Shown here in pieces: positions 33,910 through 59,481 of a stretch of 64,000 nt of DNA. The number at the start of each line of letters is the position of its first letter. Positions within the stretch are counted from its first letter, which is position 1. A program made the position numbers and the translations under genes. Origin of the DNA: Marinilabilia salmonicolor (lineage in GTDB: Bacteria; Bacteroidota; Bacteroidia; Bacteroidales; Marinilabiliaceae); NCBI RefSeq assembly GCF_003003035.1, contig NZ_PVTS01000004.1, positions 62,001-126,000 of the forward strand, read 5' to 3'. Under the pieces are notes generated by a model. That model was not told the origin of the DNA. It did not search any database and saw only the letters and a list, made by a program, of their open reading frames with translations.

Positions 33910-34137
33910 GCAATTAATCTGACCGCTTGATTTGACGTGTTTACTGCCTTCTGCCTGAATGTAATAATTATTATAATCCTGAAACAGACGCAATCTTCAA
34001 TTTTACATTTTGCAACCAGAGAGGTTTAGGTTAGTTTGGAATGAAAACAAAAAAGACTGAAATCTTGTATTTTTTTTCAAAAATCCTTTCTTTTGGAGTC
34101 AATTTGTCAATTTTAATTTGAACATAGATAGTTTTGA

Positions 34138-34445
34138 ATGAAACGAGTCCTGATTCCCTCAGACTAATGACTTAGTTTTTATCAGATAATTACAAATTTT
34201 TATACCAATGAAACGAGCATGGTGAGGGATGTCACAAAAGACAATGTATAAATTCCCTACATGCGAGTTCCATCAGACCAATAACTTAAATAAATTATTT
34301 ACTGATGAAACGAGCATGATATTTTTTAAATATAAATCACAAGAGAACATGTTTAAAAAATATTATGCGAGAGCGAAGCGGTTCCATTCGTTCTCAAATT
34401 TTTAATTAGTTTTTTATCAGATAATTACAAAATTTTAAACGAATG
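34138..34445 (+). repeat. Tandem stem-loop repeats upstream of the XRE-cupin gene (units R1-R3)
   Basis: Three units each starting ATGAAACGAG (34138, 34208, 34305). R2 and R3 contain GAGCATG ... ATGCGAG with an internal stem that differs in sequence between units (AGGGA/TCCCT against ATATTTTTTAAA/TTTAAAAAATAT) around a conserved loop like CACAARAGANAATGT. They end in a closing stem, CATCAG/CTGATG for R2 and CATTCGTT/AACGAATG for R3; the R3 closing arm contains the ATG of the XRE-cupin gene. R1 lacks the first hairpin but shares TTTTTATCAGATAATTACAA with R3. The rest of 33746-34137 shows no gene. Confidence 0.75.
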
Positions 34446-35006
34446 AAACCCGGAGAGAAAATCAAATTACAAAGAGAGGATAAGAAATTAGAGCTCAAAG
34501 AGGTGGCACAAAGAGCCCAGCTTGATGAACAACAGCTGGCCAGAATAGAGGCCGGTGAAGTTGCCCCTGCACTTGGAACACTAATTAAACTGGCTCGTGT
34601 GTTTGGGGTACGACTTGGGACTTTTCTGGACGATCAGGAAGAAACCGGTGCTGTGGTTACCCGAAAGGGAGAGAATGGCCCTGCTGATAACATGAATGCA
34701 GCGGGTTCCCAGCCACACGAGAATCTTGCTTTTTCTTCACTGGCCAGACAAAAAAGTGACCGGCATATGGATCCTTTTCTGATTGAAGTTGAGCCCGGTG
34801 ATGAGTTCAACTCCGGAAGTTCTTCACACGAAGGCGAGGAGTTTCTTTATGTTTTGAAAGGAACCCTGGAGGTTGTTTACGGAAAAGAGAAGTATGAGTT
34901 GAAAGAGGGGGATACCATTTATTATGATTCCATTGTCGATCACAAAGTATCAGCAACCGGTACTGAGAAGGCATTGGTTTTGGCAGTTGTCTATCTGCCA
35001 GTTTGA
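34443..35006 (+). CDS. XRE-family regulator with C-terminal cupin sensor domain
   Basis: 187 residues. Residues about 3-60 form the Cro/CI helix-turn-helix (GEKIKLQREDKKLELKEVAQ, ARIEAGEVAPALGTLIKLAR). Residues about 110-187 form a cupin: EPGDEFNSGSSSHEGEEFLY, VLKGTLEVVYGKEKYELKEG and YYDSIVDHKVSA. Such regulators sense small organic ligands and control a nearby metabolic gene; here an acyl-CoA ligase gene follows after 38 bases, so fatty-acid or aromatic-acid responsive control is plausible. Its start codon lies in the closing arm of an RNA hairpin that belongs to the repeat family upstream. Confidence 0.9.
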   Translation: MKPGEKIKLQREDKKLELKEVAQRAQLDEQQLARIEAGEVAPALGTLIKLARVFGVRLGTFLDDQEETGAVVTRKGENGPADNMNAAGSQPHENLAFSSLARQKSDRHMDPFLIEVEPGDEFNSGSSSHEGEEFLYVLKGTLEVVYGKEKYELKEGDTIYYDSIVDHKVSATGTEKALVLAVVYLPV

Positions 35007-37960: not shown

Positions 37961-38067
37961 TATTTCATCAGTATATAATTTATCTAAGTTATTTGTCTGA
38001 TGGAACTCGCATGTAAGGGACTTATACATTGTCTTTTGCGACATCCCTTGGCATGCTCGTTTCATTA
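37961..38067 (-). repeat. Stem-loop repeat, unit R4
   Basis: Read on the minus strand it follows unit R2 of the 34.2-kb array closely: ATGAAACGAGCATG, AAGGGA/TCCCTT inner stem, loop TGTCGCAAAAGACAATGT, CATGCGAGTTCCATCAGAC and closing CATCAG/CTGATG. It is upstream of the nspC promoter. Confidence 0.8.
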
Positions 38068-38139
38068 TTTCAAAGAATCATTCCTTTAAAAACCGGGGCT
38101 TTTTTCCTTTTAAGGGAATACATATTGTTGTTGCGTATT

Positions 38140-38212
38140 TAAAAGGCCGAAGGTCTTTAAGCAATAGCCTGGGGTGTTGCCCTGGGCTATTGCTTGTGCC
38201 CCTTCAGGGCGG
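38140..38212. repeat. GC-rich palindromic repeat
   Basis: AAAAGGCCGAAGGTCTTT followed by GCAATAGCCTGGGGTGTTGC and CCTGGGCTATTGC, related to the outer hairpins of the composite elements at 689-864 and 23514-23693. No gene lies between 37888 and 38890; the stretch is almost entirely made of repeat units. Confidence 0.65.
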
Positions 38213-38284
38213 ATACGATGAACCGTTATAAAACTATTTTTCATCGCGTGTTGAGATTCATGAAGTCAAAAAATTGCATTTCCC

Positions 38285-38535
38285 TAGTGTTTGTTGAACC
38301 ATTTTAGAAATCAAAATAGGTTCATACTGAAACCATGTTCCAACAGGCCAACGGCCTTAGAACAATAGGATAGGGAGAGGCTGTTACGTTTGCCGCCAAA
38401 ATCCTCATTTATGATTAGTTTTTGGCGGCCTCGCAAGCCCCCGAAGAAAAATCGGGGCACAGGCTTAGCAATTGGCACTTTCTGACCAGAAACAGGCCTG
38501 AAAACAAATTTCCCCGATTTTATTGACATACTCTA
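38285..38535 (-). mobile_element. TA-flanked MITE-like element, copy B
   Basis: On the minus strand it begins TA-GAGTATGTCAATAAA (plus 38519-38535) and ends at TA-GTGTTTGTTGA (plus 38285-38297). Internal sequence matches copy A inverted, including 23 identical bases at 38468-38490. A small palindromic repeat (CAACAGGCCAACGGCCTT) near 38340 seems nested in it. About 247 bp. Confidence 0.55.
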
Positions 38536-38600
38536 AGGAACATTACTTTTTTTTAGATTCTCAAATCAGACCTCGTATTTTCAAATCCCTTGCAGTAATT

Positions 38601-38726
38601 TTCATGTGTTTGAGATAGAAAGTTCAAATTCAAGGCGTGTAAAAAATATAAACCGCACAATACTAGCGTTTTTTGGGTTTTTGATTTTGAGCAACAACCC
38701 AGAAGTTGGACTTTATAGATAAACAA
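38601..38726 (+). mobile_element. Decayed MITE-like element, copy C
   Basis: Aligns to copy D from ATGTGTTTGAG through GTTCAAATTCAAGGCGTG to TTTGAGCAACAAC and a degenerate right end GGACTTTATAGATAAACAAT. The left terminal repeat is missing. A fragment AAAACGAGCAT of the stem-loop family follows near 38822. Confidence 0.6.
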
Positions 38727-59078: not shown

Positions 59079-59481
59079 GTTTTTAATGTTCTCGTTATTA
59101 TAACTGCTTTTTGGCGTAAATGTTTTGGGTTTGGGGGAGAATGAGCACAGGGCATGGTGCATGGTGCATGGTGCAACGGAGCCTGAGGGGCTCCCAGGTT
59201 TATAGCTGTTCGCCAAATTGTAGAAAACCGACGCTGAAAGTGTCGTATGTTTTAAGTGATAGTAAGATGTGATTGTCTGAATGAACGAAACGAGCATGGC
59301 AGCGATTGCCACAAGAGAACATGTATAAATTCCTGCATGCGAGTTCCATCCGACCTTAATTAATAAATTTTATACGGATGAAATAATATTTGGTACTCAT
59401 ACTTGTGATGAGTCACAGGAATAAGCCAAAAAAAAGGACACCAATACTGATGTCCTTTTAAAATTATATTGTTTCAGCTTT
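59079..59481. other. Gene-free gap with tandem and stem-loop repeats
   Basis: Contains the tandem GCATGGTGCATGGTGCATGG (about 59153-59176), the R5 stem-loop unit (59281-59392), and the terminator of the alpha-oxoamine synthase gene at 59427-59459 on the minus strand (stem AAAAGGACA/TGTCCTTTT with a T8 run). Nothing else is visible. Confidence 0.7.
59281..59392 (+). repeat. Stem-loop repeat, unit R5
   Basis: ACGAAACGAGCATGG, inner stem GGCAG/CTGC, loop CACAAGAGAACATGTATAA, CATGCGAGTTCCATCCGAC, and closing CATCCG/CGGATG. Related to R2-R4 with a different but still pairing closing stem. Confidence 0.8.

Follow-up and report, generated by a model that had tools for sequence, protein, structure and literature searches.

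The stretch analyzed here (hereafter the window) comprises 64,000 nucleotides of Marinilabilia salmonicolor (contig NZ_PVTS01000004.1, positions 62,001 to 126,000 of the forward strand) and carries five units, R1 to R5, of a dispersed repeat family. Three of them, R1, R2, and R3, are arranged head to tail (34138-34442) and adjoin the start codon of a gene, and the other two stand alone (Table 1). Taken together, the analyses reported below are best explained if the whole family is a gene-free, non-autonomous mobile element, some 60-140 nt in length, which we consider probable.

Table 1. Units of the repeat family and associated features, in coordinates of the window.
Feature	Position	Strand	Details
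R1, decayed unit	34138..34207	+	short sub-type left end joined to a long tail of hairpin B; sequence inspection
R2, 97-nt unit with hairpins A and B	34208..34304	+	CATCAG (34271-34276) pairs with CTGATG (34302-34307)
ATGAA, left edge of R2 and right edge of R1; proposed insertion target	34208..34212	+	left-end consensus, empty sites
R3, 138-nt unit, long sub-type with ATATTTTTTAAA stem	34305..34442	+
ATGAA bordering R3 on the right; regenerated by the element, serving as gene start	34443..34447	+
Gene opened by the right-hand ATG of R3	34443..35006	+	187 aa; helix-turn-helix (HTH) and cupin, weak family matches
R4, lone unit, intergenic	37969..38065	-
R5, lone 93-nt unit, intergenic	59285..59377	+	CATCCG and CGGATG paired

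Architecture and distribution of the units

An earlier note on this DNA had described R2 to R5 as a stem-loop repeat family, and inspection of the sequence confirmed the coordinates of the four units as well as the stems and the loop that it quoted. Units in the window are 93-138 nt long and consist of a hairpin A (ATGAAACGAG…CGAGTTCCAT) leading into a hairpin B (CATxyG…Cy'x'ATG), with the layout ATGAAACGAG, variable stem-loop, CGAGTTCCAT, xyG, AT-rich loop, Cy'x', and ATGAA. The AT-rich loop of hairpin B is mostly 22-25 nt in length (49 nt in the long sub-type), the right end of the element is itself AT-rich (…TTTTATACnnATGAA), and the CAT of the unit can pair with either the upstream or the downstream ATG. 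Three sub-types were distinguished by hairpin A: a common one with GRCAA..TTGYC plus a conserved ACAARAGANNATGTATAA stretch, a short one with TCCCGA..TCGGGA only, and a long one with the ATATTTTTTAAA stem. The left end of R1, ATGAAACGAGTCC, resembles the short sub-type GAAACGAGTCCCGA...TCGGGACGAGTTCCAT, and in hairpin B of R3 CATTCG (34385-34390) pairs with CGAATG (34440-34445). The right-hand ATG of the two lone units gives ATG AAA TAG only in R4 (37966-37968) and ATG AAA TAA only in R5 (59378-59380).

Searches of the window's genome (G000) and its relatives revealed that the repetition is not due to chance. BLAST (E<=0.001) returned 60 matches in G000, and matches at this threshold were found in 19 of the 100 genomes searched, G000 included. 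A strict pattern occurred 44 times in G000, 31 times in its congener (G004), 221 times in Anaerophaga thermohalophila DSM 12881 (G031), and 123 times in a further relative (G021), while the reversed pattern used as control was absent from all four. Carriers among the 80 of 104 matching loci that were listed included Thermophagus xiamenensis, Marinilabilia rubra, and metagenome-assembled genomes labelled Prolixibacteraceae, Mariniphaga, Dysgonamonadaceae, and Paludibacter. Throughout this work the parsers miss decayed copies and length of the open reading frame (ORF) stands in for annotation; copies from other genomes were taken from hit lists, with a few loci fetched for the downstream gene, and counts refer to the sequence fetched rather than to whole genomes.

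The phage and plasmid collections searched gave no match. Two viral contigs were matched: IMGVR_UViG_3300033562_001108 has one unit (about 189-281 of locus L326, minus strand) at an apparent gene start codon, and the match in the other is not a unit. The former contig is a possible vehicle between hosts. In addition, arrays at three G031 loci (L187, L189, and L195) are followed by a similar stretch of 90-100 bp starting ATGAATCCTCATTAACAA, and other arrays by ATGAAAAGTAAACTCCG..., which suggests further dispersed repeats beginning at ATGAA.

Folding and covariation

Units R2 to R5 fold better than shuffled sequence, with z scores of -3.1 to -5.5 as RNA and -1.9 to -4.1 as DNA; the weakest fold was that of R5 as DNA, which 7 of 200 shuffles equalled. 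Covariation was examined in right modules whose sole defining features were TTCCAT, a preceding left end and a following ATGAA. The closing triplet of hairpin B was fully Watson-Crick in 215 of 311 such modules, compared with a mean of 71.9 (standard deviation 6.6, maximum 92) in 1000 runs with permuted partners, and the paired triplets were of eight types. Because the copies are related, a stronger test is provided by modules with the same loop: six exact loop sequences each carry two or three different fully paired triplets, and thus both sides of the stem have changed on one background. This support is limited by the 91 of 339 right modules that lack full pairing. The covariation of the closing stem that the earlier note had seen in four copies is therefore borne out on a larger scale. 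Its statement that the stems vary while still pairing holds for the closing triplet; the differences between the inner stems of R2 to R5 mostly reflect different sub-types and not compensatory changes within a single stem.

Of the 13 cells of hairpin A that differ on both sides, 12 fall in the small inner stem, where a G-C to A-U exchange is seen; the outer stem is uninformative alone because it is nearly invariant. The non-complementary positions of this hairpin (A·C and tandem G·A/A·G) show the same degree of conservation as the paired ones in an alignment of 40 divergent units (A1), in which A4, C63, and A59 are invariant and G8, A9, and G58 are conserved in at least 90%; the rows of A1 were selected for a paired triplet, so that the CAT pairing in it is not evidence for pairing. 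The conserved mismatches point to a folded strand of fixed polarity, since a double-stranded inverted repeat would not need them. Together with the hairpin-B triplet, they support the proposal that selection acts on a folded strand, RNA or single-stranded DNA in the earlier wording, and the sequence patterns are consistent with a folded single strand.

Whether such a strand belongs to a short-peptide gene or to a known small RNA or ribozyme such as the hammerhead was considered, and we regard this as very improbable. Some units read MKRAWQ... without a stop, and the hammerhead model RAGATH-1 scored 21.7 bits at 34272-34337. A coding function was rejected, given that the reading frame stays open up to the right ATG in only 32 of 193 units, compared with 24±4 in shuffled sequence, and that unit lengths fall in all three frames. 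The hammerhead core is CUGAUGA; this candidate was also rejected, as its score lies far below the gathering score of 56.3 and the core is broken in the CGG and CGA variants. No Rfam family matched the window at its gathering score, and the weak hits within 34100-34460 were far below thresholds. Integron attC sites, another class of folded site, have the core GTTRRRY at the 3' arm; they were discarded as well, the 3' arm of the units being GTTCCAT, invariant in the 40 rows of A1. Limited searches of the open-access literature likewise brought up no recognizable account of such an element.

Insertion at ATGAA and start codons

Mobility of the units was examined by comparing G000 with 800 kb of its congener G004, which revealed six distinct clean pairs of filled and empty sites, four found by eye and two in a systematic pass. 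Six loci were shown in the set inspected by eye, of which four were clean (L044, L014 minus, L014 plus, and L015); the flanks of L039 are rearranged and L045 matched no orthologous site, and both were left out. The systematic pass returned five pairs, two of them already known and one false (G000_C1 near 332925), which was rejected as its longer flanks matched only other repeat copies. Alignment of 800 bases on each side supported four pairs, with flanks overlapping by exactly 5 bases at the empty site. In L014 (minus), for instance, the filled site reads TCTATGAA-ACGAGC...ACTG-ATGAAAAAACAGG and the empty site TCTATGAAAAAACAGG. One pair is filled in G004 and empty in G000, and its empty site is AAGAA, not ATGAA. 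Four of the six pairs lie at starts of ORFs, of 136, 146, 397, and 417 codons, and in two, L014 (plus) and L015, the new unit stands next to an older one at a shared ATGAA. These data show that insertion of complete units at ATGAA (in one case AAGAA) has taken place since G000 and its congener diverged, with ATGAA on both sides afterward. An inserted unit, being bordered by ATGAA on either side, likely offers targets for further insertion, which would account for tandem arrays such as R1 to R3.

The left edge of 172 first units showed base frequencies of A.91 T.93 G.97 A.99 A1.0, the first two bases being somewhat free, and the right edge was ATGAA in 89 of 97 cases, with a parser that favours ATG where present. 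Left edges TTGAA, GTGAA, ACGAA, and AAGAA also occur, mostly with ATGAA on the right, and one GTGAA copy has ATGAG; because several copies with another left edge keep it, the right ATGAA seems to be the element's own. The base following ATGAA was A or T in 219 of 228 cases, against a background of 0.61 for ATGAAN and 0.60 at ORF starts. The target is thus ATGAA followed by A or T.

These edges also bear on an ordinary miniature inverted-repeat transposable element (MITE) moved by a DDE transposase, with 14-bp imperfect terminal repeats, a 5-bp target-site duplication and an ATGAA preference arising by chance. The 5-bp repeat on both sides of the units and the imperfect inverted repeat formed by their ends would be expected from it; left and right 5-mers that differ in several copies, the nearly fixed sequence of both edges and the conservation of the terminal-repeat mismatches in divergent units would not, and we consider it improbable.

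Control ATGAAW sites lay inside ORFs in 2357 of 2978 cases, compared with only 2 of 48 right ends of the element; copies are thus rare within ORFs and are retained at start codons and in intergenic DNA. Because many genes begin with ATGAA, the right-hand ATG often opens an ORF: in 121 of 233 arrays (G000, 28 of 56; elsewhere, 93 of 177) this ORF has 60 codons or more, a count from which 33 of 266 arrays running into half a unit were left out. On the control contigs, ORF starts made up 20 of 46 element right ends, compared with 179 of 621 control ATGAAW sites outside ORF interiors (p=0.04). Placement at start codons is therefore largely a consequence of the target sequence and of selection against gene disruption, plus a modest unexplained excess.

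Ten downstream proteins were compared with NCBIfam. Dxr, PurA, Tgt, QueA, CysK, TrkA, CysD, and ribosomal protein L36 passed the cut-offs, one protein is an ABC ATPase close to LolD that remained below them, and the product of the window gene gave weak HTH and cupin matches. Profile matches begin at position 1 for Dxr, PurA, QueA, TrkA, and L36, from which alignment the right ATG is read as the natural start of dxr, purA, queA, trkA, and the L36 gene. Of the 115 arrays that precede an ORF of 100 or more codons, 111 contain an in-frame stop upstream of the right ATG, which in 100 of those arrays is the first ATG, GTG, or TTG past that stop; as predicted from these frames, translation must begin at the right end of the element or further in. 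The same start codon may carry different units in related strains. In two A. thermohalophila strains dxr has different sub-types at this position, and the orthologue of the window gene in G004 has a different (short) unit at the equivalent start codon; the orthologues in G002 and G010 retain a hairpin-B remnant and a probable remnant, respectively, and neither unit nor remnant is visible in G016 and G021. At L030, examined for a GTG start changed to ATG by insertion, the congener orthologue already starts with ATG. A unit also adjoins the ORF at L084:1542-1949, which resembles part of an IS3-type transposase with an integrase core. The earlier note overlooked the mobility of the units, their ATGAA(A/T) target and the frequent coincidence of the right end with a genuine start codon.

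The frequency of ORFs behind the units (121 of 233 arrays, compared with 179 of 621 control sites) and the ability of the CAT to pair with either ATG would also be expected of a cis-regulatory 5' leader, in which the start codon would be sequestered by hairpin B, with hairpin A as a competitor for that CAT, giving a translational switch. However, 112 of the 233 arrays have no such ORF, pairing is no better at start codons (84 of 121) than elsewhere (87 of 112), and the excess is modest where it was controlled; the downstream genes are functionally varied and the empty sites reveal recent insertion. Such a leader is accordingly an improbable account of the family, and a regulatory side-effect at some genes is possible.

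Mode of movement and related elements

We propose, as the probable interpretation of these analyses, that the family is a gene-less hairpin element processed as a folded single strand and mobilized in trans, working like IS608 or repetitive extragenic palindrome (REP) elements, a likeness that does not amount to membership. The resemblance to IS608 follows from the fixed target kept on the left, the precise empty sites, the strand-specific fold, and a segment able to pair with both edges. Hairpin A, in which the tandem G·A mismatch is conserved, would be recognized as a folded single strand, and a putative guide at its 3' foot, TTCCATxyG, would pair with the left (ATGAA) and right (Cy'x'ATGAA) cleavage sites. 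Excision would join the ends, and the same pairing would select a target ATGAA, on whose 3' side the element would insert, much as TTAC is selected by IS608. The cutting enzyme would be encoded elsewhere, a Y1 HUH transposase being the likeliest known type, and the AT-rich right end would become the new translation-initiation region.

In IS608, guide sequences pair with the cleavage sites and with the target TTAC, each guide lying 5' of its hairpin (PMC5934647). The present units share with IS200/IS605 elements of this kind insertion on the 3' side of a short fixed target, which stays in the left flank, clean empty sites, folded ends, and a hairpin-foot sequence able to pair with the cleavage sites. 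They differ in that no tnpA lies in cis, the target is ATGAA(A/T) instead of TTAC, a single putative guide would serve both ends, and the right cleavage site repeats the target, so that the start codon is restored. No copy with these ends encoding a Y1 TnpA was found in the sequence examined, which covers part of each genome. Free-standing stem loops derived from IS605 on Borrelia plasmids are likewise transposon hairpins without a transposase gene next to protein genes (PMC2775950), whereas in the present family insertion is seen and the junction is often a start codon. The TAACTGA direct repeats of Beggiatoaceae and some Bacteroidetes are also intergenic and near start codons, but they are arrays of a heptamer, for which no mechanism of spread was evident to the authors (PMC4679880).

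Several observations weigh against this interpretation. No autonomous copy, with the ends enclosing a gene, was present in 1.26 Mb of G031, G004, and the window, nor were ends enclosing a gene found in the other fetched loci or in 1.18 Mb of G000, where orphan ends were judged by reading, distant intervals were partly translated, and about one quarter of the genome was read. Shared long flanks searched for an autonomous parent revealed none, and the 25 largest protein clusters beside copies contained no recombinase. PF01797 (Y1_Tnp) was undetected in the carriers G010, G018 (76% complete), and G019, although in G019 a broken homologue of the Y1 protein of G021 qualifies this absence. In G031 the same protein has only a 29% match, inside a frame of 1014 codons. 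The putative guide lies 3' of the hairpin whereas those of IS608 lie 5'. The lagging-strand orientation bias expected of single-strand transposition is not clear: local GC skew was positive for 39 of 90 copies away from start codons and for 41 of 56 at start codons, the latter being expected because of gene orientation. The 13 entries parsed in G000:C1:1-400000, some of which share an array, are all on the plus, G-rich strand, and orientation on other contigs is mixed; this may be a hint of replication-linked insertion, or chance.

Separately, Y1_Tnp-like matches at L007, L306, and L307 were seen to lie within open frames of 1014-1399 codons, and the long ORF at L007 has helicase-like motifs as judged by eye.

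The units could alternatively be members or offshoots of a REP system moved by a domesticated Y1 transposase (REP-associated tyrosine transposase, RAYT, or TnpA-REP), perhaps of the Bacteroidetes subclass 2.6. They are similar to REPs and REPINs in being short, many-copy, hairpin-forming, and non-autonomous; transposition in trans would also fit, and Y1 genes were present in 49 of the 61 genomes searched. Subclass 2.6 is without GT[AG]G and has atypical flanking structures, and some RAYT subclasses of Bacteroidetes lack the GTAG tag (PMC6006769); moreover, a bulge in the stem matters for the REP of Escherichia coli (PMC8266576). REPs are, however, described as 20-40 bp long, mostly with GTAG or CGTC at one end, and predominantly downstream of coding regions (PMC3733652), whereas the present units are about 60-140 nt, head to tail, often exactly at start codons and untagged, the conserved hairpin feet being AAACGAG and CGAGTTCCAT. 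Nor are they grouped around a RAYT gene, with units near 2 of 25 Y1 loci: none of the 10 in G000 had a unit within about 1.5 kb, and 2 of the 15 in four relatives (L303 and L315) had units, on one side only as seen, a frequency judged to agree roughly with copy density. By eye, other palindromes mostly lie beside the Y1 genes with inspected flanks, and G010 and G018 have neither a PF01797 hit nor a match to the G021 protein. Membership in this system is therefore considered unlikely.

Other repeats also lie beside R4. Palindromic repeats at 38100-38400 (GCCCCTTCAGGGC and neighbours) look, by eye, like the flank of the Y1 transposase gene G000:C3:106245 (L003) and are perhaps its REP family. 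Further on, about 127 bp (38600-38726) match ten places in G004 contigs with 84-91% identity, representing another dispersed repeat family.

The family is thus a real, mobile, start-codon-restoring miniature element and probably a variant of trans-mobilized hairpin elements. Since its target is a common start-codon context that the end of the element restores, genes tolerate its insertion between their former leader and the coding sequence, apparently including genes such as dxr and purA. Shine-Dalgarno sequences matter little in Bacteroidota, and the copies offer a natural leader-replacement set for the study of translation initiation in this group. A more tentative and less probable reading is that the family represents a previously undescribed class of minimal mobile DNA within Bacteroidales: a folded single strand without genes, one internal segment of which would recognize both ends and the target, moved by an enzyme other than a recognized Y1, and whose colonization of start codons would be made harmless by the rebuilt ATGAA and a working translation-initiation region. 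If true, this element would have rewritten the 5' leaders of numerous genes, probably including essential ones.
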